Positions 22,444 through 45,130 of a stretch of 64,000 nucleotides of DNA are shown one piece after another. Within the stretch, counting starts at the first letter, position 1; every line of letters begins with the position of its first letter. The notes under the pieces were generated by a model. It did no database searches. It was given only the letters and a program-made list of their open reading frames with translations, and had not been told where the DNA came from. Where the stretch lies: the NCBI RefSeq assembly GCF_011516945.1, contig NZ_WOTH01000002.1, forward strand, positions 62,001 to 126,000, read 5' to 3'. The position numbers and the translations under genes were made by a program. The stretch comes from Acetobacter estunensis. GTDB taxonomy: Bacteria > Pseudomonadota > Alphaproteobacteria > Acetobacterales > Acetobacteraceae.

Positions 22444-22638
22444 TCAGGGCGTCTTTGGGGGCTTGTACCACGACGGTATTTTCGGCCCCTTGTAGTGCTT
22501 GGCGTGATAATGGGTGTCGCTGTCCAGATTGGGATCGTCGCTCGAACAGGCTCCCAGCGCCACAAGTGGCAGAGCGAGAAAAAGTCCCCACACGACCTGT
22601 TTTATCCGCCGCGTACGCTGTTTGCGGTTCCTATTCAT
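22444..22638 (-). CDS. Small lipoprotein, last gene of MCE operon 1
   Basis: A 64-residue product: basic N-terminus, hydrophobic stretch, lipobox LGAC at about residue 30, then a short His/Lys/Pro-rich tail (HYHAKHYKGPKIPSWYKPP). Its ATG overlaps the stop of the preceding TPR lipoprotein gene in ATGA, which indicates translational coupling and supports it as a real gene. No recognised domain. Likely a membrane-anchored accessory of the transport system. Confidence 0.7.
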   Translation of the reverse strand: MNRNRKQRTRRIKQVVWGLFLALPLVALGACSSDDPNLDSDTHYHAKHYKGPKIPSWYKPPKTP

Positions 22639-23576
22639 TTTTCTGTTTCCTTGACCGCAAAGGGCTGGAGCGGCAGCGAAAGTCCCGCTTCGCTCATATA
22701 CTGAATGGCCAGAGGATCATTCTGTCCGGTCGTGGCGCTGCGGGCCGCTTGCCCCTGCGCCGCGCGTGCGAGCAATGCTGACGCCACTTCGGGGTGTCCG
22801 GCCGCCTTCGCCGCCTGCGCTTCGAGTGCCATCGCGTGAATCATGGCTCGGTCATCACCATTCTTGCGGCGAAGTTCCACGGCCTGCGCCGCCAGTTCCT
22901 GCGCGCGGGCCGGGTCCGTGTGCAAGAGTGTCAGCGCCTGCAGGGCCACCACATCCCCCTGCACATCGAGCGAATGAGGCTGAGGCAATGACGACAGACT
23001 CTGGAGGCTGGCCGCAAGTGTTGCGGAATCCGAGCGTCGAGCCGCCACGATTCCGGCAATGAACATCGCGCGCTGACGGATATCGGTTTCCGAGGATTGT
23101 TCGGCCCGTCGCGCCATATCGGCGGCTTCGGCCAGCCGACCCAGCCGCGAATAGGCCCCAGCCGCCACAAGATCGAGCGCGCTGGTGCCCATTGCCGCTG
23201 TTTTCTGTTCCGTTCCAGCCGTTTGCGCCTGAATCCCGACGGAACGTATCTCAAGTGCGGCGCGCGCATTCTGCACCGTTTCCAGAGCATCGGTCGGCTT
23301 GTCGGCGGAAAGCTGGGTCACGGCGAGGTTGTAGGAGGAATCAGCAATACCCTGCGGGTCATCGTCACGTAGCGCAAGGCGGGACGCCTCGCGGTATTCC
23401 CGCTCCGCCACGGAATAACGCCCGATGGCGAGCGCCTGCTGACCCGCATCCATGGCCTGCTGCCATGCGGCATTGCGCACCTGCACGCCCTGATCCTGAT
23501 TGCCGCCACCGCTGCATCCTGCCAGTGCGGCGCAAAGCGGTAGCGCAAACAGCAGCCGGTATTTCATCGGACTCAT
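22635..23576 (-). CDS. TPR-like lipoprotein in MCE operon 1
   Basis: A 313-residue lipoprotein: signal with lipobox LAGC at about residue 20, then helical repeats in pairs (AIGRYSVAEREYREASRLAL, DALETVQNARAALEI, and later alanine-rich helices) that resemble TPR/solenoid folds. Location: periplasmic face of the outer or inner membrane. It occupies the place where Pqi/Let operons carry PqiC-type lipoproteins but is not related by eye. Overlaps the MCE gene upstream by 4 bases (ATGA) and the small lipoprotein downstream by 4. Confidence 0.78.
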   Translation of the reverse strand: MSPMKYRLLFALPLCAALAGCSGGGNQDQGVQVRNAAWQQAMDAGQQALAIGRYSVAEREYREASRLALRDDDPQGIADSSYNLAVTQLSADKPTDALETVQNARAALEIRSVGIQAQTAGTEQKTAAMGTSALDLVAAGAYSRLGRLAEAADMARRAEQSSETDIRQRAMFIAGIVAARRSDSATLAASLQSLSSLPQPHSLDVQGDVVALQALTLLHTDPARAQELAAQAVELRRKNGDDRAMIHAMALEAQAAKAAGHPEVASALLARAAQGQAARSATTGQNDPLAIQYMSEAGLSLPLQPFAVKETEK

Positions 23577-24526
23577 GGCGAGACTCTCCGCGCAGGAAGC
23601 CTCTTGGCCGACTGGCTGGTGCTATGACCACCCAGCAGCCAGAGACTGCGCAACTGGTCCGTCAGCTTCTGGAGCGAGTAGAGCGTGGTCTGCGCCTGCG
23701 TCAGAAGCGCCGGTGCATCGGCCAGCGTATCATCCACATTGCGCGTGATCGACGGCAGACGTGGCGTGGCCGTCTTGAGATCGTGCGTCGCGGACTTCAC
23801 GTTTGCCATGGTGGTGTCCGTCTTTTTCAGGATGGCCTGAAGCTGCGCCTCCTGCGGTTTGAGACGGTTGATGACGTCGTTGAGAGAGACGATGGTGCCC
23901 TCTGCCTTGCGGATCAGATCATCGTTGGTCATCAACTGACCGATGCTGCCTTTACCCGCGTGCATGTCGGAAATCGTGTCATCGAGCTGCGCCATCATAT
24001 GACGGGCGCTGGCAATGGCCGGCATGACCTCGGCCTGAATGTTCTTGAGCGTCTGCGTGATCATGTCGGTGGGGCTGGGTTCCGTCACGGCGTTAATGAC
24101 GGCGTATTTCCAGTCCATCGCCTCACCACTGCCGCGTGTCAGATCAAGGTAACTCGCGCCCGCCACTACGAACTGCTTGCGGATGACAGCAGTGCTGTCG
24201 CGCTTGATGAAAGGCTCCACCTGTGGGTCAAGGTCAACGAGCGCATACATCCGCCCCGTAGGATTGAGTTTGATGCCGCGAATGGTGCCGGCATGCGCGC
24301 CAAGGATCTGCACATCCCCACCAACGGCAAGGCCGCCCACACCGGTTTCGGGCAGCACCACTCGCAGCCGTGCCGGCGGACTCAGCCAGTCGCTCAGCAC
24401 GCCGGCCTCAATCACCGCCGCCGCAAAAACGACGATGCTGATCAGGACGAGCAGGCCTACCCACTCATCGGCATAGCGGAGATGAATAAGGGGGCGGCCC
24501 TTCTGGCGTAACCTGATCTGAAACAT
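23573..24526 (-). CDS. MlaD-like MCE-domain protein (MCE operon 1)
   Basis: A 317-residue protein: one N-terminal transmembrane helix (about 23-42), a single MCE domain (about 52-130, with GLAVGGDVQILGAHAGTIRGI), then a long helical region with heptad-like spacing (about 155-300). MCE proteins form hexameric rings that conduct lipids between membranes, driven by an MlaF/MlaE ABC transporter. Its start overlaps the stop of the ATPase-like gene in TGATG. Confidence 0.88.
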   Translation of the reverse strand: MFQIRLRQKGRPLIHLRYADEWVGLLVLISIVVFAAAVIEAGVLSDWLSPPARLRVVLPETGVGGLAVGGDVQILGAHAGTIRGIKLNPTGRMYALVDLDPQVEPFIKRDSTAVIRKQFVVAGASYLDLTRGSGEAMDWKYAVINAVTEPSPTDMITQTLKNIQAEVMPAIASARHMMAQLDDTISDMHAGKGSIGQLMTNDDLIRKAEGTIVSLNDVINRLKPQEAQLQAILKKTDTTMANVKSATHDLKTATPRLPSITRNVDDTLADAPALLTQAQTTLYSLQKLTDQLRSLWLLGGHSTSQSAKRLPARRVSP

Positions 24527-25248
24527 CAGCGCATCCGTATCGTCATGAGTCCGTCATCCGCAAGGCGCCACTGGCCATTGATCGCCTGTCGGTAGCGCTG
24601 CCACACAGTCGGGTCACGTACGAACCAGATGGCGGAAGCCCCCCGGTCTCGGGCCTCGGTGAGGGATTCCAGAAAGGGTTGCGAAAGATCCACGGGGCTT
24701 GTCTCCAGAGGGTCTTCCAGAAGAAGGAGCTGCGGCTTGCCGAGAAAGGCACGCACACAGGCCGCACGCACGATGTCCGCTTCCGAAAGGCGGCCGGGCA
24801 CATCGGTGGGAATGCCGGGCAAACCGAAACGCTCGCACAAATGCTCGGTGTCCGTCGTGACGGTCTCCAACGGTATCGTCGTGTGATGCAACTGCTTGAG
24901 CATCATCGCGACATGGGTGCCGAACAGGTTGCTCCAGATCGCGCGGCGGGTGATGCGGCCGATCCGCCCCCGCAACGCGTTGCGACGCCGGTCATTCAAC
25001 TCCGTCCAGTCCAGTCCCATGAACCGGACGTTGCCCTTGAGCAGATGAATCATACCCGAGCACAAATCCGCAAAGACAGTGGCCCGCGTCATGTCGCGCG
25101 TCTCCACGATCACGCATTCGCCCGGCATCAGTCGCAGCGTCAGTGGCGTCGGCGGCATGCCGCTTTCATCGAAAACGGGCGTCGCATCCGCCAGTTCCAG
25201 CATCGGCCCCGCCAGACGATTCACGGATGTTGTTCCTGTGTCACTCAT
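24526..25248 (-). CDS. Degenerate ABC ATPase-like protein (pseudo-MlaF) of MCE operon 1
   Basis: A 240-residue protein in the ATPase slot of the operon, with ABC-ATPase layout but none of the catalytic motifs. The Walker A position (residues 49-57) reads ETRDMTRAT in place of GxSGSGKST; the signature is LSEAD (154-158) instead of LSGGQ; Walker B is LLLLEDP (174-180) with the Asp-Glu pair inverted to Glu-Asp; the switch histidine is Arg211 (WFVRDP). The frame is uninterrupted and translationally coupled on its downstream side, so it appears selected as a protein. Probably a structural or regulatory pseudo-ATPase, perhaps pairing with the intact MlaF at 42.6-43.5 kb. Confidence 0.78.
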   Translation of the reverse strand: MSDTGTTSVNRLAGPMLELADATPVFDESGMPPTPLTLRLMPGECVIVETRDMTRATVFADLCSGMIHLLKGNVRFMGLDWTELNDRRRNALRGRIGRITRRAIWSNLFGTHVAMMLKQLHHTTIPLETVTTDTEHLCERFGLPGIPTDVPGRLSEADIVRAACVRAFLGKPQLLLLEDPLETSPVDLSQPFLESLTEARDRGASAIWFVRDPTVWQRYRQAINGQWRLADDGLMTIRMR

Positions 25249-25260
25249 CAGTCCCGCCCC

Positions 25261-26229
25261 TCACAGCTTGAGACTGAACAAAACGCTGACTGTCATGACG
25301 ATCAGCATGCCACGGGAAAAACCACGCGGAAGCATGGTACGCATGGAGTCCTCTTTGGAGGCCGTCAGCCCGCTCACACAGCAGCCCAGTCCCACGAGAA
25401 AGCCCACGACCACGAATTTCAGCGGAATGAGCAGATAGTCCAGCGGCGTCATGGCAATCACCACGTCGTAATAGAACGACAGCAGTGAGTTCGAGAGAGC
25501 ACCTGAAGCCCGACTGATGATGTAGCCGGTGGTCAGTGACGCAAGCGAGAAAATGATGCCAAGCGTAAAGCCCGAGACCATGAAGGCCAGTGTGCGCGGC
25601 AAAACCAGCAGAAGGAACGGATCGAGACCTTCCGCCTGCATGGACCGCACCTGACCGCCCGTTGTCAGCATGCCGATCTCGGCCAGCGACAGCATCCCGC
25701 TGCGACCGAGCATCAGCACACCGACCAAGATCGGCGCCAGTTCACGCACGATCACGGTAACCAGAACCGACCCGGTCATTTTCGCCATACCGGCGAAGCC
25801 CAGCCAGTAAATCGCCTGTGACACCACGCCGACACCTGTCAGCGCACCCGTCACGGCGGTACTCAGCAGGCCCCCACCCGCCACATCGCCCAGCGTCATC
25901 TGGAATTCATAACGCACCGTGCGACGCCAACTGTTGGGACGACAGCTTTCGCGGATCACACCCCACAGCGTGCCCAGCATGATAAGCAGGAACCACACCT
26001 GCCGACGTACCAGAGCGCCAAGCCAGCCAAGAAAATGGACGAATCTCTCACTAAGCGTCGCTTTGCGGGAATGATCGTCGTCATCCTGATGGAACGTCGC
26101 AGGCGGTGCCCCCAAACCGAAGGAGATGTCCTCCTGATTATCGGGCAACACTGCCCCCGCAGGCGGCGGGTTGTCCTGTTGCGACGATGCGCCTTCCGGC
26201 CCTTTCGGGTTTTCAGGATCCTGTGTCAC
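25261..26229 (-). CDS. MlaE-like ABC permease (MCE operon 1)
   Basis: A 322-residue inner-membrane protein. A Pro/Asp-rich cytosolic N-terminus (about 1-75) precedes the MlaE permease fold with five to six membrane segments; the family core VREL-APILVGVLMLGRSG and GMLTTGGQVRSMQAEGLDP (coupling helix region) is clear at about residues 160-205. Expected to form the membrane dimer under the MCE ring. Its ATG overlaps the stop of the cyclase-like gene in ATGA, and the ATPase-like gene begins 12 bases downstream. Confidence 0.88.
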   Translation of the reverse strand: MTQDPENPKGPEGASSQQDNPPPAGAVLPDNQEDISFGLGAPPATFHQDDDDHSRKATLSERFVHFLGWLGALVRRQVWFLLIMLGTLWGVIRESCRPNSWRRTVRYEFQMTLGDVAGGGLLSTAVTGALTGVGVVSQAIYWLGFAGMAKMTGSVLVTVIVRELAPILVGVLMLGRSGMLSLAEIGMLTTGGQVRSMQAEGLDPFLLLVLPRTLAFMVSGFTLGIIFSLASLTTGYIISRASGALSNSLLSFYYDVVIAMTPLDYLLIPLKFVVVGFLVGLGCCVSGLTASKEDSMRTMLPRGFSRGMLIVMTVSVLFSLKL

Positions 26230-28589
26230 CGGCGTGTCGCGAGTACGTAGACCCGCCCTATGCCTGAGCGTGGCGCATAGAAAGAGCCACGACTGCGGAA
26301 CAGATAGTGGTCACGAAGCGCCTGATACACCCGTTCCGTGACTTCGATCGTGCCCACATCCGGCGCACCCTGCGCCATGAGTTCGGCCAGAGTCACAGTC
26401 TCGCCCCACAAGTTGAACGATTTGGGATCGTTACCGAGTTCTCCGCCCATCGCGGGACCAAAATCCATGCCGATGCTGAAGATCGGTTCGATATTGGCCT
26501 GCGAGAGAAGCATCATGCACGTCTCGCGCAACACCAGTGCGGCTTCGGCAAGACGCCAGATCGCGGTCGGATCCGCGTCTTTCGTGCAGCCCGCAACACA
26601 GATCAGTCGATGCCCCGCAACCTTGACCGAAAACAGCTCATAGCGGCGCGCGATGGCTTGCACTTCGCCCGCGATACGATCGATCAGCGGCAGTACGGCA
26701 GACCCCTCGTCTTCCGCTTCCATCACCGGATCGGTGAAGGTGATGACCATGACGGCGACACTGGGGAATAGCCCTTTTCCGATTTCACCAGCGGCAACAG
26801 GCGGCTGCATCAGCGATTCGTCGAAACGGGGCTCGGGCAGCGCGGTGGGAGACGCAGGCAGGGTATCGCTGCCGCTCGCCTCGTTGCCAGTTGTGCCGGT
26901 GGTGCCCATGGCGCCAAACCGGATGGCGGCAATGCCCGCAATGATGTCGAGGAAATAGACCAGATGAGGCGCGAAGTTCGCGTTCTCAAGCGTGATCATG
27001 CCCAGAATTTCCGACCGACCGCCTACCGTGCCACGGATGGGGTGAACGATCAGAGATTGCGTGACCGCATCCCGCATGACCAGCCGTTCAAACGGGGCTG
27101 TGCGTTCATCGGACCCGGCGTGAGTCACGGTTACCGGCACACCGGCGTCCACGATCTTGAAGAAATCCTCCATTTCATGACGGGATATCTCAAAACCGCC
27201 CGCATGAGCCGTCTGACGGGTATCGAAACTGTCCTCGCAGATGAGTGCCGTCCCATCATGCACCAGACGCCAGAGCGCGGCACGCTGAACGCCGCCCACG
27301 CGCGCCATCGCCTCGGTCAGCACGAGCGCTTCGTCTTTCGGATCGAGGATGCCCGGTGTCTCCGCGATCTGCCGCAAGGCCGCCGATTCCGAGTTGGTCT
27401 GGTCACGTTCATGACGCAGTTCGCGCGTGACACGTTCGGTGCGGCGGCTCTGTCGGGCCAGCAATCCCGCCAGCAGGGAAGCCAGCACGATAATGACGAC
27501 CGAGAATTGCAGTCCTTCCCGGCCGCTCTGTCGGGCAAAACTGGCAAAATCGTTCTCCGGTGCCACGATCAGCAGAACCCAACTGTCCGATCCCGGCAGA
27601 TCCTGCGCCATTCCGATATAATTGCGTCCATCATATTGGAAAGGATGTGAGCCGGCCCCGCGCACCCGATACTGGTCATAGACCCGTCGAAATGTGCCTT
27701 CGGTCGCCGGATCGAGTGTCATACGTGACGGATCGCCACCAGCTCGCGCGACAATCTGTTCGAAGCCGTGCCCAGCAATGATCCGACCATGACTGTCGAG
27801 GATCATTGCATTGCCGTTTTCGCTGATTTTCAGGCTGTCCAGAAACTGGCTGAGCTGATTGAGCGAGATATTGATGGCAAAAACGCGCTGGATTCCATCC
27901 GTGCCAACCAATGGTACGGAACCTGTCACGATGAGCTGCTTCGTGGTGGCGTAGATGGTGGGTGACGTCCAAGCGAAGCTCTTCTTCTCTATTGTATTCG
28001 CATACCAAGGGCGAGTGCGGGGATCGTAGTTCTCAGCGTCGTTTTCTTCGCTGCGTATGATTTTGCCATCAGTGCCACGAAAGTCATGATGGAAGATCTT
28101 GTGACCGCCAACGGTTTTGAGCTGGGTGTATTCCAGCCCCTTTCCGGCAGGATCGCGTTCCACAAGCAGGAAATTGCCATTGGCATCGCCGAGGTAATAG
28201 GACTGTATTTGCGGCACCAGCCGCAGCATGGTGGCCCCATAGGAATAGAAGGCGCCCTGCGTAAAGGCCGCTGGCGCATGGCTGATGAAATCCTGAGCGA
28301 AACTTCCGCCCAGTGTCGCAGCGCCCATATATGCCGTGACATCCTGTACGACATAACGCTGTACTGATTGCAGGAGACGGTGTGTCAGTTGCAGCACGCC
28401 GGTGCGCGTAGTGCGGTAGGTGTGCAGACCAATTCCGCCAATCGCCACAAGGATCAGCAGCACCCCAAGAACCGGAACAACGACCTGGAGCAGCTTCTGC
28501 CGCAGAGAGGCGTCATTTTGTTCCGTGGGGTCGACTATCTCGTTGGCCGCCAAAAGTCCTGCATCCCCATGCCATGCGCGCGAGGACAA
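26226..28589 (-). CDS. Cache-GAF membrane sensor with degenerate class III cyclase domain
   Basis: A 787-residue receptor, first gene of MCE operon 1. Domains: TM1 34-57; extracytoplasmic dCache (about 80-340, with RPWYANT at 193-199 and the strand AMILDSHGRIIAGHG); TM2 360-378; GAF (about 405-560); class III cyclase homology (about 608-787). In the cyclase part the first metal Asp is absent (VAVMVITFT, 611-619), the second is His660 (KVAGHRL), and the Asn and Arg of VNxAxR are Thr733 and Leu737. The wing GMDFGPAMGGELG and NLWGETV remain, so homology is clear while catalysis is unlikely. TTG start; an in-frame TTG at 28553 is an alternative. Confidence 0.75.
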   Translation of the reverse strand: MSSRAWHGDAGLLAANEIVDPTEQNDASLRQKLLQVVVPVLGVLLILVAIGGIGLHTYRTTRTGVLQLTHRLLQSVQRYVVQDVTAYMGAATLGGSFAQDFISHAPAAFTQGAFYSYGATMLRLVPQIQSYYLGDANGNFLLVERDPAGKGLEYTQLKTVGGHKIFHHDFRGTDGKIIRSEENDAENYDPRTRPWYANTIEKKSFAWTSPTIYATTKQLIVTGSVPLVGTDGIQRVFAINISLNQLSQFLDSLKISENGNAMILDSHGRIIAGHGFEQIVARAGGDPSRMTLDPATEGTFRRVYDQYRVRGAGSHPFQYDGRNYIGMAQDLPGSDSWVLLIVAPENDFASFARQSGREGLQFSVVIIVLASLLAGLLARQSRRTERVTRELRHERDQTNSESAALRQIAETPGILDPKDEALVLTEAMARVGGVQRAALWRLVHDGTALICEDSFDTRQTAHAGGFEISRHEMEDFFKIVDAGVPVTVTHAGSDERTAPFERLVMRDAVTQSLIVHPIRGTVGGRSEILGMITLENANFAPHLVYFLDIIAGIAAIRFGAMGTTGTTGNEASGSDTLPASPTALPEPRFDESLMQPPVAAGEIGKGLFPSVAVMVITFTDPVMEAEDEGSAVLPLIDRIAGEVQAIARRYELFSVKVAGHRLICVAGCTKDADPTAIWRLAEAALVLRETCMMLLSQANIEPIFSIGMDFGPAMGGELGNDPKSFNLWGETVTLAELMAQGAPDVGTIEVTERVYQALRDHYLFRSRGSFYAPRSGIGRVYVLATRR

Positions 28590-41274: not shown

Positions 41275-41476
41275 TATTCGCTCTCCCGCTGCGAGCTCTG
41301 TCCTATAGCCTTCGTATCGTTTTGCGACGAGTCCGTGTTTTTCATCCAGAAAAAGATGTAAAAATCACAATAAGACCTGTTCCGAGCACACAGAATCGTG
41401 TTCATCTGCAAAGATTCGGCGCATCTCTGCTCTGTCTGGTCAAGTGCTCACGTTTGACCTAGGCTCTGTGCTGCCT

Positions 41477-42652
41477 ATGACGGATCAACGCCCCTCCCAG
41501 CCCGCCACACAGACTGGCCAGCCGCACGACCGCCCTCAATGGAACATCGCGTCCTCGGGAGAGACGGCGACCCTTCGCCTTTCCGGTCAATGGACAGTCG
41601 ATGACGGCGTGCCGCTCGAACTGCCTGCCGATGCTCTGACAAAAGCCGCTCATGGCGCCTCTCATCTCAGCATCGACACGTCGGGGCTGGGACAATGGGA
41701 TTCCTCACTGGTTTCGTTTCTATGGAATGCCCGGCAGAGCACTGAAAAAGCAGGACTGACCTTCGACACCGCACAACTGCCCGACGGTGTCCAGCGACTG
41801 ATCGCCCTTCTCCCGCCCGCTCCTCAGCCGCCCGCCACTCCCCACGCGCATGTTCCCAATCCGTTTCAGGACGCGGGCGCCTTCACCATCGCCTCCCTTG
41901 AGGAAGTCGGAGCCGTCACTCTGCTGGGTGTCGACACGGCGAAAGGGTCGGCCAAGGCCCTGAGTGGCCATGGCGGCATGCGCTTGCGTGACCTGCTGAC
42001 CAATATCTCGGACGCGGGCCCTTCGGCCCTGCTGATTGTCCTTGTGGTCAATTTCCTCGTGGGGGCAATTCTGGCCTTCGTAGGTGCCGTCCAGCTCCAG
42101 AAATTTTCGGCCGATATTTATGTCGCCAATCTTGTAGGCATTGCCTGCGTGCGAGAACTGGCCGCCGTCATGACCGCCATCATCATGGCGGGTCGTACAG
42201 GTGGAGCTTATGCCGCTCGTATCGCGACCATGCTGGGCAATGAGGAAATCGATGCCCTTCAGGTCTTTGGCATCCCCATCTCGAGCTACATCCTGCTGCC
42301 GTCCGTGTTGGCACTGATGCTGATGATGCCGCTTCTCTATCTGTATGGTTGTCTGGCCAGCATTCTCGGTGGCTATACCGTCGCGGTGGTCATGCTCCCC
42401 GACATTACCGGCACGGGCTACCTGCACCAGACTTGGGATGCGGTCGATCTCCACCAGTTTGAGTTCGGTTTCATCAAGTCCATCGTGTTTGCGACCATGA
42501 TCGGTCTCACGTCATGTCGCATCGGTCTGAAGGCCGGACGCAGTGCCGCAGATGTTGGAACAGCGGCGACAAGCGCCGTCGTGGTGGGCATCGTGGGTGT
42601 GATCGCGCTTGATGCTGTATTCGCGGTGATCGCCGACGTGATTGGCATATGA
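41477..42652 (+). CDS. mlaE: STAS-MlaE fusion permease (MCE operon 2)
   Basis: A 391-residue protein. Residues about 25-120 form a STAS/MlaB-like domain (LSIDTSGLGQWDSSLVSFLW), joined by a Pro-rich linker to an MlaE permease (about 150-390) with the core CVRELAAVMTAIIMAGRTGG and MLGNEEIDALQVFGI. In E. coli the STAS subunit MlaB is separate and regulates the ATPase MlaF, so this fusion combines both. I use the ATG at 41477; GTG 41468 and 41444 are possible. Overlaps mlaF by 4 bases. Confidence 0.9.
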   Translation: MTDQRPSQPATQTGQPHDRPQWNIASSGETATLRLSGQWTVDDGVPLELPADALTKAAHGASHLSIDTSGLGQWDSSLVSFLWNARQSTEKAGLTFDTAQLPDGVQRLIALLPPAPQPPATPHAHVPNPFQDAGAFTIASLEEVGAVTLLGVDTAKGSAKALSGHGGMRLRDLLTNISDAGPSALLIVLVVNFLVGAILAFVGAVQLQKFSADIYVANLVGIACVRELAAVMTAIIMAGRTGGAYAARIATMLGNEEIDALQVFGIPISSYILLPSVLALMLMMPLLYLYGCLASILGGYTVAVVMLPDITGTGYLHQTWDAVDLHQFEFGFIKSIVFATMIGLTSCRIGLKAGRSAADVGTAATSAVVVGIVGVIALDAVFAVIADVIGI

Positions 42653-43500
42653 TGAACCCGTCAGCCTCCTCCCTTCCCGCTCCTTCGGATCGTACCCGTG
42701 GAGATGTCCTGCTTTCTCTGCGGGATGTGACCATCGGCTATGGAAAGAAGGTCATCCAGAAAAACATTTCCATGGATGTGAAGCGCGGCTCGATCTTCGC
42801 CATCATGGGTGGCTCGGGATGTGGCAAAAGCACGCTTCTTCGGGCCATGATCGGACTTCTGCGCCCCCAAAGCGGAACCTATACCGTCGATGGCGATGAA
42901 TACTGGACAGGTCCGGATAGCCACCGCACAGCGCTGAATCGCCGGTTCGGCGTGTTGTTCCAGAGCGGCGCGTTATGGAGTTCCATGACGGTGGGCGACA
43001 ATGTGGCGCTCCCGCTGGAAATGTTCACGCGGCTTGATGATGAGATGATCCGCCGACTGGTGGAGTTGAAGCTGGGTCTCGTCGGCATGTCCCATGCCAT
43101 TGACCTCATGCCGTCCGAAATTTCCGGCGGCATGAAAAAGCGCGCGGGCCTCGCACGCGCCATGGCTCTCGATCCGGACGTGCTGTTCTTCGATGAGCCG
43201 TCCGCCGGCCTTGACCCCATCACTTCGGCACGACTGGACGATCTGATCCTGACTCTGCGCGATGGACTGGGCGCTACGATCGTCATCGTAAGTCATGAAC
43301 TGCCCAGTCTCTTCACCATTGCCGATGACGGCATCTTCCTCGATGCCGAGACGCACACCCCTATTGCTCACGGCTCTCCTCGCGATCTGCGCGATCACAG
43401 TACCAACCCCATGGTCCATGCCTTCATGCACCGTGAGGCCAGTACGGACGCGCCCCCCGCCGAGCCAGCCACGAAAGGCACGAATTCCAATGGCCACTGA
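42649..43500 (+). CDS. mlaF: MlaF-like ABC transporter ATPase, intact (MCE operon 2)
   Basis: A 283-residue cytosolic ATPase with every catalytic motif: Walker A MGGSGCGKSTLL (about 53-64), signature SEISGGMKKRAGLARA, Walker B DVLFFDEPSAGLDP, and switch histidine in VIVSHEL. It energises lipid movement by the MlaE/MlaD complex. It is the reference for judging the degenerate ATPase-like protein at 24.5-25.2 kb. Coupled to mlaE by ATGA overlap and to mlaD by an 11-base overlap. Confidence 0.95.
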   Translation: MMNPSASSLPAPSDRTRGDVLLSLRDVTIGYGKKVIQKNISMDVKRGSIFAIMGGSGCGKSTLLRAMIGLLRPQSGTYTVDGDEYWTGPDSHRTALNRRFGVLFQSGALWSSMTVGDNVALPLEMFTRLDDEMIRRLVELKLGLVGMSHAIDLMPSEISGGMKKRAGLARAMALDPDVLFFDEPSAGLDPITSARLDDLILTLRDGLGATIVIVSHELPSLFTIADDGIFLDAETHTPIAHGSPRDLRDHSTNPMVHAFMHREASTDAPPAEPATKGTNSNGH

Positions 43501-44479
43501 TTCAGGAGCAACCCGACAGACGCTCGTCGGAATCTTTGTCACGGGTGGAATTCTTCTTGGCGTGCTGGCTCTGATCTTTTTCGGGAACATCAACTTTTTC
43601 TCGAAAAACCATCGTGCGGTGATCGTGTTTCAGGATTCCGTGGCGGGGCTGAGCATCGGGGCGCCCGTGACCTTTCGTGGGGTGCGCGTGGGCTCCGTGG
43701 AGAGCATCAAGCTGCGCTACGATCCGGTGGCCCGTGTTCCCTACATTCCCGTCGTCATCAGTCTGGATGCAGCGCAGGTCCATGTCATGCACGATCCGGG
43801 GCATCCATCACGCCCGCTCGATCTGCGTGAGGTGGTGGCGCACGGGCTACGCGCTGAGCAGAATCTTCAGAGCTTCGTGACCGGCACTCTCAACATCAAT
43901 CTGGATTTCTTTCCCGGAGCGCCAGCGACCTTTCATCCACGCGTTGCCGATGAACTGCCCGAGATTCCGACACATGAGTCGGCCATGCAGAAGATCAAGC
44001 AGACAATCAGCGATCTTCCTCTCAAGCAGCTTGCGACACACGCGGATGAGGCCGTTCTTTCCATTCGTGATGTCGCTCAGAAGCTGAATGTCGAGTTGCC
44101 TCCCCTTGCCGCCAGCCTCCAGCAAAGCTCGGCCGACGCACAGGAAACGCTCAAGACCGCCACGCAGGCCGTGCGCGATCTCGAAGGGCGGCTGGATACA
44201 ACCCTTGTCGACATCGATAAGCTGATGCGTACGGGGAATACACAGATCGAAGCCCGTGGCGCGGATCTGCATGCGACGCTGACCAGTGCGACAAAAGCGA
44301 CCGATGAAGCGCGACGGACACTCCAGAATGTCGAAGGCATTCTGTCCCCCCGCTCGGCGGATCGGGACAACCTCGATTCCTCGCTGCGCGATATCGCTGC
44401 CGCTGCCGCATCCCTGCGTGGATTTGCCAGCGACGTGGAGCGCAACCCACAACTTCTGCTCATGGGACGCCGCCCGTAG
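43490..44479 (+). CDS. mlaD: MlaD-like MCE-domain protein (MCE operon 2)
   Basis: A 329-residue protein: TM helix at about 11-30, MCE domain about 40-120 (QDSVAGLSIGAPVTFRGVRVGSV), then a long helical segment (about 160-310) with regular hydrophobic spacing that would extend the MCE tube or needle. An 11-residue PVARVPYIPV insertion in the MCE domain resembles the PqiB/YebT-type loop. Start ATG 43490. Confidence 0.92.
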   Translation: MATDSGATRQTLVGIFVTGGILLGVLALIFFGNINFFSKNHRAVIVFQDSVAGLSIGAPVTFRGVRVGSVESIKLRYDPVARVPYIPVVISLDAAQVHVMHDPGHPSRPLDLREVVAHGLRAEQNLQSFVTGTLNINLDFFPGAPATFHPRVADELPEIPTHESAMQKIKQTISDLPLKQLATHADEAVLSIRDVAQKLNVELPPLAASLQQSSADAQETLKTATQAVRDLEGRLDTTLVDIDKLMRTGNTQIEARGADLHATLTSATKATDEARRTLQNVEGILSPRSADRDNLDSSLRDIAAAAASLRGFASDVERNPQLLLMGRRP

Positions 44480-44521
44480 GCCCCGCGTCATGATCCATCA
44501 ACCCGTTCAGGAGAGCGACGC

Positions 44522-45130
44522 ATGATCGCGGTCCGCAAATGCTTGTCCCTCATGGCCGCACTGGTTCTGGCGACAAGCGTGGCTGGTTGCTCCAGCCCGC
44601 CCCTGCAACTGTACACACTTGCCGGAGCCGGCACGGGCCAGAATGGTGCTGTGACACCGGGCACGCCCATTCTGGAAGTCCGGCGCGTGCAGATGCCGGA
44701 CTATCTGGACACGCAAGATATTCTGACCCGCAATGGCACGGCGCTGGCCCGTAGCCCCAATGGACGGTGGGCGGAGCGTCTGTCCGATGGCGTGACCGAT
44801 GTGTTGGCGGCGCGAATTGGTGTCAGTCGCCCCGATCTGTTCGTGACGGAACAGGCGCCACTGGGCACTACAGCCAACCGTCTGCTGGTCACGATCACGC
44901 GCCTCGATATTTCCTCATCGGGCACGGCCACTCTTGAAGCTCATTGGACCGTTATTCCCGCCGATGAGAAACAGCCCGAGCAGACCTATCGTGTGAGCTT
45001 CAGTTCAACCGGGAATGCGTCCTCGGATGCCGGAACGGTGGCACTTGTAAACGCCATGAGCCAGCAACTCGCCACCCGAATCACGAATTCGCTGCCAGCA
45101 ACTCTACTTGCCGGGACAAGTCCGTCCTGA
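44522..45130 (+). CDS. ABC-type transport auxiliary lipoprotein, PqiC-like
   Basis: A 202-residue lipoprotein: lipobox VAGC at about residue 23, then the PqiC/DUF330-type domain with YTLAGAG at the start and LEVRRVQMPDYLDTQDILTR in the middle. PqiC-type lipoproteins sit on the outer membrane and receive the MCE tube. GGAGAG precedes the ATG at 44522. Last gene of MCE operon 2. Confidence 0.85.
   Translation: MIAVRKCLSLMAALVLATSVAGCSSPPLQLYTLAGAGTGQNGAVTPGTPILEVRRVQMPDYLDTQDILTRNGTALARSPNGRWAERLSDGVTDVLAARIGVSRPDLFVTEQAPLGTTANRLLVTITRLDISSSGTATLEAHWTVIPADEKQPEQTYRVSFSSTGNASSDAGTVALVNAMSQQLATRITNSLPATLLAGTSPS

Follow-up and report, generated by a model that had tools for sequence, protein, structure and literature searches.

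The stretch of DNA analyzed here (the window) is a segment of 64,000 nucleotides from Acetobacter estunensis (contig NZ_WOTH01000002.1, positions 62,001 to 126,000). Its gene at 24526..25248 encodes a pseudo-ATPase, i.e., a protein with the ABC nucleotide-binding domain (NBD) fold that lacks the catalytic motifs. This gene occupies the place of mlaF, beside mlaE and mlaD, in a cassette of five genes. The best explanation for the patterns found, given somewhat less than an even chance of being correct, is that an ancient pseudo-ATPase under selection has taken the place of the motor in an MlaE/MCE lipid transporter, and that the cassette would serve as an ATP-independent MCE lipid conduit that is usually gated by a sensor.

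Loss of catalytic motifs

The pseudo-ATPase gene is an uninterrupted open reading frame (ORF) on the minus strand, which from its ATG yields a 240-residue protein; the plus strand does not yield this protein. An earlier reading based on the nucleotide letters alone (the sequence-only reading) had the coordinates of this frame right, and its motif readings recur in the translation, with ETRDMTRAT for Walker A, LSEAD for the signature, ED instead of DE at the end of Walker B, and Arg211 in the switch region. Its observation that the motifs are lost holds, with refinements. The P-loop, the signature, the Q-loop Gln, and the switch His are absent from the window protein, but Walker B is altered rather than erased, as the hydrophobic strand and a swapped acid pair are kept. 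The residue at the position of the Walker A Lys is Ala56 when counted from the Gly before it with no gaps, and Arg55 when counted as in the sequence-only reading, and that at the position of the switch His is either Arg211 or Asp212, given an ambiguity of one residue. The catalytic residues are needed in MlaF, as had been stated: the E. coli variants K47A and E170Q fail to complement (PMC7367683, available excerpt). By analogy, the pseudo-ATPase should not hydrolyze ATP, because these changes abolish MlaF function.

The same losses were found among orthologs. The comparison includes 122 orthologous frames, which consist of the window gene and those of 79 loci in named genomes, 40 deeper loci, and two loci outside of the family. 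The record of the window's own gene (L049) was left out of this count, the broken copies L149 and L150 were kept, and L111 and L161, apparently the same record, were both counted. None of the 122 frames has a P-loop (GxxGxGK[ST]), and no intact Walker A that would point to a sequence error or recent decay in the window was found in any of them. Among the 121 orthologs that cover the site, none has a Lys at either candidate Walker A column. The Walker B DE pair is absent from all 122 (eight have EE), and the first-position acid is kept in 120 (Glu in 119 and Asp in one). For the signature, the first Gly is present in 11/121 orthologs and the second in 6/121. In many members, the place of the P-loop is taken by a new motif, roughly [ED]-x-R-D-x-x-R-A-[TA].

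The window also contains a second operon (operon 2; 41444-45130, plus strand), which encodes a STAS-fused MlaE (MlaE2), an intact MlaF (MlaF2), an MCE protein, and a probable lipoprotein. Within the genus, the Walker A stretch of the pseudo-ATPase has drifted (mean majority frequency of 0.70, compared to 0.76 overall), whereas this stretch is invariant (1.00) in MlaF2. Other stretches of the pseudo-ATPase hardly vary, among them NALRGRIGR (0.99), and the altered Walker B strand is likewise well conserved (0.94). This conservation pattern is that of a protein apparently freed from catalysis and held for other reasons. Judging from substitution rates, the pseudo-ATPase is under purifying selection much like the intact MlaF; the ratios of nonsynonymous to synonymous substitution rates (dN/dS) are 0.025–0.085 for the 14 closest pairs, which share sequences, and 0.021–0.087 for MlaF2.

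Distribution of the pseudo-ATPase

All 25 same-genus genomes, including that of the window, have an ortholog (49–100% identity). A scan of named genomes found 99 relatives, of which 80 were kept; these are from Acetobacter, Gluconacetobacter, Komagataeibacter, Novacetimonas, Gluconobacter, Ameyamaea, Bombella/Parasaccharibacter, and one Rhodospirillales metagenome-assembled genome. With an E-value threshold of 1e-20, the pseudo-ATPase was found in 137 of the 397 genomes and 38 of the 102 genera in the family sample. The numbers are 153/299 genomes for the order sample and 4/299 genomes for the phylum sample, with three of the four belonging to the same family. In the class sample (385 genomes), clear orthologs outside of the family were found only in G447 and G762, both of which have the same cassette. 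These two were picked by the best E value per genome, and among the matches listed, orthologs score at least 255 bits compared to at most 97 bits for the others. A class-wide deep-profile search at 1e-15 also caught ordinary ABC ATPases (355/385 genomes). In genus g48 and in L128 (Bombella), the similarity continues beyond a TGA that lies close to the end of the gene, such that the C-terminus is seemingly slightly shortened.

Predicted fold and placement among NBD families

The AlphaFold model of the pseudo-ATPase, built from 44 family members, has a mean predicted local distance difference test (pLDDT) score of 93.9. A Foldseek search with this model gave template modeling (TM) scores of 0.72–0.85, normalized by the query, to the 50 chains listed, which include the NBDs of FtsE, YbbA, MacB, LolD, and MlaF with scores of about 0.8. 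The pseudo-ATPase is thus modeled as an NBD fold without a visible ATP site. Its score against Pfam ABC_tran (PF00005) is 20.6 bits, which is below the cut-off of 25 bits; two of the five relatives scanned pass this cut-off. For the MlaF equivalog model NF008809, the score is 16.7 bits against a cut-off of 441, a strict threshold that the intact MlaF of operon 2 also misses (212.4 bits), and the DevA and FtsE models score above the MlaF model. Among the 28 NBD frames scanned in its own genome (of 55 matches), the two MlaF copies rank fifth and sixth in similarity to the pseudo-ATPase, and Protein Data Bank chains of LolD, FtsE, MacB, and MlaF score 66–78 bits. By the tests used, the pseudo-ATPase would not be classified as an MlaF, and the profile scores do not single out any one NBD family for it.

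A conserved five-gene cassette

The cassette consists of, in order, the genes for a sensor-cyclase, an MlaE-family permease (MlaE1), the pseudo-ATPase, an MCE-domain protein (MlaD1), and a lipoprotein with tetratricopeptide repeats (TPR) (Table 1). Translational coupling, which had been claimed for the pseudo-ATPase gene, is backed by start/stop overlaps: the stop codon of the pseudo-ATPase gene overlaps with the start of mlaD (TGATG), and the start of the permease gene overlaps with the stop of the gene upstream (GTGA). The same operon is widespread among homologs, with all five genes present in 76 of the 80 close loci (including some in which frames are split), 31 of the 40 deeper loci, and both loci outside of the family. 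Among the remaining loci, L115, L082, L130, L148, and L154 are incomplete, with the sequence ending near the missing gene, and L126 lacks the lipoprotein gene at a contig end. L087 (Komagataeibacter europaeus, on a short contig) has no permease gene in the 1.2 kb upstream of the pseudo-ATPase gene and no sensor gene; misassembly or rearrangement is possible. No frame with both a P-loop and an SGG signature was found within 3 kb of the pseudo-ATPase gene in the 120 loci scanned. Intact ABC-like frames near the cassette were found in two loci: L147 has two, 3.2 and 4.0 kb away, and L075 has one at a distance of 3.8 kb.

Table 1. Features of the cassette in the window.
Feature	Position	Strand	Remarks
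TPR lipoprotein	22635..23576	-	Lipobox LAGC; TPR_12 25.3 bits, below the cut-off of 30.1; cassette member
MCE-domain protein (MlaD1)	23573..24526	-	Long helical tail; PF02470 39.1 bits, cut-off 25.1
Pseudo-ATPase	24526..25248	-	240 aa; ABC nucleotide-binding fold without catalytic motifs
Switch region VRD	24613..24621	-	Residues 210-212; without His
Altered Walker B LLLLED	24712..24729	-	Residues 174-179; acid pair swapped
Degenerate signature LSEAD	24775..24789	-	Residues 154-158
Asp61	25066..25068	-	Aligns with MlaF Arg52, the docking residue for the permease coupling helix
Degenerate Walker A ETRDMTRAT	25078..25104	-	Residues 49-57
MlaE-family permease (MlaE1)	25261..26229	-	GTG start; PF02405 112.9 bits, cut-off 22.5
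MlaE1 coupling helix GGQVRSMQ	25636..25659	-	Residues 191-198; replaces (E/D)(E/Q)IDAL
dCache-GAF-cyclase-homology sensor (pseudocyclase)	26226..28589	-	Degraded cyclase active site
Cyclase transition-state region WGETVTLAEL	26379..26408	-	Asn and Arg lost
Cyclase metal-B motif VKVAGHRL	26604..26627	-	Asp replaced by His660

For MlaD1, the match to the Mce profile TIGR00996 (45.2 bits) is below the cut-off, and the structural model, which has a low to middling pLDDT score (68.8), predicts a helical tail some 150 residues long. The tail in this model and the Mce-profile match hint weakly at a path in the form of a tube instead of a shuttle of the MlaC kind.

Some copies of the cassette are broken or seem to be. 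Those in L067, L102, L127, and L054, all from draft genomes, have a sensor, permease, MCE, or lipoprotein gene that is seemingly in two frames. The cassette in L149 (G302:C48), from a genome that is 81% complete, is broken into many short frames, either by decay or by poor sequence quality. The cassette in L150 (G165:C1:297000-308000) is fragmented in a small genome. In the same genome, the canonical MlaE matches only as two pieces of one frame (G165:C1:1491819-1492364), and both lipid systems seem to decay together.

A second putative pseudoenzyme

The upstream cyclase is also a putative pseudoenzyme by its residues, which the sequence-only reading had missed. The cyclase domain of the sensor matches the class III nucleotidyl cyclase family PF00211 (51.4 bits, cut-off 21.9) and, over most of the domain, the mycobacterial-type adenylate cyclase structure 4p2m (E value of 2.8e-13). 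The residues compared are the metal-A and metal-B Asp and the transition-state Asn and Arg. The 77 cyclases compared are that of the window and 76 others (including L049); four of the 80 close loci were dropped for having no single cyclase frame. The metal-B Asp is present in none of the 77, with His or Asn instead, and the transition-state Arg is likewise replaced in all (by Glu, Ala, or Gly). In comparison, the transition-state Asn is kept in 12/77 and the metal-A Asp in 75/77. Among the deeper loci, inspection by eye found the metal-B Asp in L136, L140, L142, L146, and L148, and the transition-state pair was not seen in any of the cyclases listed. The upstream cyclase therefore looks catalytically dead, and the cassette may combine two pseudoenzymes.

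A charge-reversed docking interface

In E. coli, MlaE touches MlaF through its coupling helix, where E127 faces R52 of MlaF (PMC7784689, available excerpt), and Lys47 of MlaF is the Walker A Lys (PMC7367683, available excerpt), such that R52 lies five residues further. These two positions were mapped by the numbering of the papers and by alignments to Pseudomonas and Acinetobacter chains. In the operon-2 orthologs of the genus, the permease helix reads EE[IL]DAL with a Glu at the E127 position in all 30 sequences, and the R52 position of MlaF2 is Lys or Arg in all 29. In the cassette, the E127 position of the permease is Gly in 112/118 sequences, an Arg or Lys is found three residues past this position in 103/119, and in the pseudo-ATPase, Asp or Glu stands at the R52 position (Asp61 in the window) in 114/120. 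An acid-to-Gly change in the MlaE1 helix together with a base-to-acid change in the pseudo-ATPase therefore favors a private pair, and MlaE1 and the pseudo-ATPase are inferred to dock through a charge-reversed interface of their own. In four permeases, the base gives way to D, E, or N, and their pseudo-ATPases are non-acidic at the Asp61 position; all four belong to genus g111, where they come from four of the five loci L133, L137, L138, L139, and L144. This covariation has a Fisher p value of 0.007 for 87 distinct pairs, which are not independent, with all of the exceptions in one genus.

Possible functions of the cassette

Under the favored explanation of an ATP-independent lipid conduit, a dimer of the pseudo-ATPase would dock only on MlaE1. 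The dimer may then act as a non-hydrolyzing clamp or gate of a lipid path that would need no ATP and would lead through MlaE1 and MlaD1 to the TPR lipoprotein. In members that have the sensor, its periplasmic dCache domain may set the state of the clamp through the GAF and dead cyclase domains, by protein contact rather than by a cyclic nucleotide. A more specific version holds that the NBD gate of an ATP-free ABC/MCE lipid conduit is locked by the charge-reversed interface and is mostly switched via the pseudocyclase, with the two dead enzymes as a mechanical relay; this version is conceivable but doubtful.

Several points weigh against this explanation. Lipid transport, gating, and complex formation by the cassette are all inferred from sequences, and the contact between the pseudocyclase and the pseudo-ATPase is a guess from gene order. 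If lipids were moved against a gradient without ATP, the energy would have to come from elsewhere, and no such source is visible in the cassette. The sensor-cyclase was not found in any of the six loci of genus g111 (L133, L135, L137, L138, L139, and L144), of which L135 is cut by a contig end, and the genes upstream in L137 and L139 look unrelated. The sensor is usual, not universal, and it is not essential to the cassette in this genus. Because of this genus, the odds are lowered for the sensor-gated conduit, for its mechanical-relay version, and for the signaling alternative considered below. The covariation at the docking interface is suggestive only, as the cases are confined to one genus with no correction for phylogeny. 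Some orthologs keep individual catalytic residues, with a Glu at the catalytic position in 8/122, a Gln in the aligned Q-loop column in 9/122 (and somewhere in that stretch in 19), and a candidate switch His in 11/122 (two at column 211 and nine at column 212; not in the window). Finally, each of the 30 cassette genomes examined has the canonical Mla permease, in one case split, and an MlaF is found beside it in all 11 genomes inspected (nine by coordinates; G069 and G156 were read), such that a hybrid of the cassette with the MlaF of the canonical system is possible.

The main rival, although unlikely, is that the cassette is a signaling complex rather than a transporter. MlaE1 and MlaD1 would sense the state of lipids or of the envelope, and the pseudo-ATPase and pseudocyclase would relay this state to an output. 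A cassette that combines a dCache-GAF sensor with two pseudoenzymes fits this possibility, as does the finding that Pfam detects no enzyme domain in the five proteins beyond the degraded cyclase and the NBD. However, Pfam also detects no kinase, DNA-binding, or diguanylate cyclase output domain in the cassette, the permease and MCE domains are retained, and genus g111 has the rest of the cassette but no sensor.

Quite improbable is an asymmetric heterodimer, in which MlaE1 is bound by one pseudo-ATPase and one intact MlaF, whose ATP use would drive or regulate transport. ABC transporters with one degenerate site do exist, and a potential partner is at hand in the canonical system, since its permease is accompanied by an MlaF in the genomes inspected and also in the genome of the window. 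The idea that some cassette genomes lack MlaF altogether was rejected, because both candidates, G069 and G156, have a canonical MlaF beside the canonical permease. The sequence-only reading had suggested the MlaF of operon 2 as a possible partner, and this pairing does not hold as a general dependence. Among the 30 cassette genomes examined, nine lack the operon-2-type permease and have only two MlaE permeases, the canonical one and that of the cassette. The operon-2 MlaF was not found in the same nine genomes, where the best match is at most 163 bits compared to 399 and 431 bits in two positive controls. The cassette persists in genomes without operon 2, and therefore the operon-2 MlaF is not needed. 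In addition, the MlaF-docking acid is missing from the coupling helix of MlaE1, which has acquired a base. Moreover, with the Walker A/B half and the signature half both missing from the pseudo-ATPase, each of the two composite ATP sites in a mixed dimer would be incomplete.

Similarly improbable is that the pseudo-ATPase binds ATP or another ligand at a remodeled site and cycles in a non-canonical manner. The new motif in the place of the P-loop in many members and the near-constant first acid of Walker B (120/122) could be read in this way, as could the few orthologs that keep the Q-loop Gln, the catalytic-position Glu, or the His. However, several motifs are altered together, the glycine-rich loop is gone, and in E. 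coli MlaF, replacing either the Walker A Lys or the catalytic Glu alone is enough to abolish function (PMC7367683, available excerpt).

A decaying remnant or a sequencing error can be set aside, as the sequence-only reading had judged for a remnant: although the fragmented copies in L149 and L150 indicate that the cassette decays in places, the frames are otherwise open, the P-loop is missing from 122/122 orthologous frames across genera, dN/dS values of 0.025–0.085 point to purifying selection, and the gene is found in 137/397 genomes and 38/102 genera of the family.

Relation to known systems

No description of an MCE system whose NBD is fully degenerate, or of such a cassette, was found in the literature, in searches that covered open-licence papers and of which several were narrow. 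A conserved MlaE/MCE system stripped of its ATPase may provide a natural experiment on the mechanism and direction of lipid movement by MCE systems and on the role of ATP in them. If the cassette still moves lipids, ATP would not be needed for the path itself; if the cassette signals, an ABC architecture would have been turned into a sensor. Furthermore, it would be unusual for two pseudoenzymes, here a dead NBD and a dead cyclase, to be inherited together as parts of the same cassette. The cassette occurs in industrially used acetic acid bacteria.

Among known systems, the cassette shares with MlaFEDB an MlaE-family permease, a protein with one MCE domain, and an NBD-fold subunit at the operon place of MlaF. 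It differs in having a re-keyed coupling helix, a long helical MCE tail, and the additional pseudocyclase sensor and TPR lipoprotein, and Pfam detects no MlaB or MlaC among its five proteins. The long-tailed MCE protein and the lack of MlaC in the cassette are reminiscent of systems with an elongated MlaD or of the Mce1 type, such as Veillonella MlaEFD and mycobacterial Mce. However, the mycobacterial Mce system uses an intact ATPase. In Veillonella, an MlaF is encoded together with MlaE and MlaD (PMC10665443, available excerpt).

The pseudo-ATPase is also comparable to the non-catalytic NBD site of heterodimeric ABC transporters with one degenerate site (e.g., MsRv1273c/72c, BmrCD, and TAP). 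Transporters of this type keep one complete site, which is formed with the partner, whereas the pseudo-ATPase keeps neither half-site. Similarly, the cyclase domain of the sensor resembles class III cyclases (e.g., 4p2m) over most of its length but differs in the absence of the metal-B Asp and the transition-state Arg from 77/77 sequences.

PqiAB and YebST likewise have MCE proteins, and the usual neighbor of these is not an ABC permease (PMC5561183, available excerpt). In these systems, the membrane partner is of the PqiA type rather than MlaE, and no NBD-fold protein is named in that excerpt. The genome of the window has a PqiB-like ORF of 591 aa with three MCE-domain matches (G000:C31:2844-3863). 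Other MCE proteins in this genome are encoded by short frames (G000:C3:65154-65387 and G000:C2:23066-23299; 200 and 166 aa, respectively), which are beside none of its three MlaE matches.
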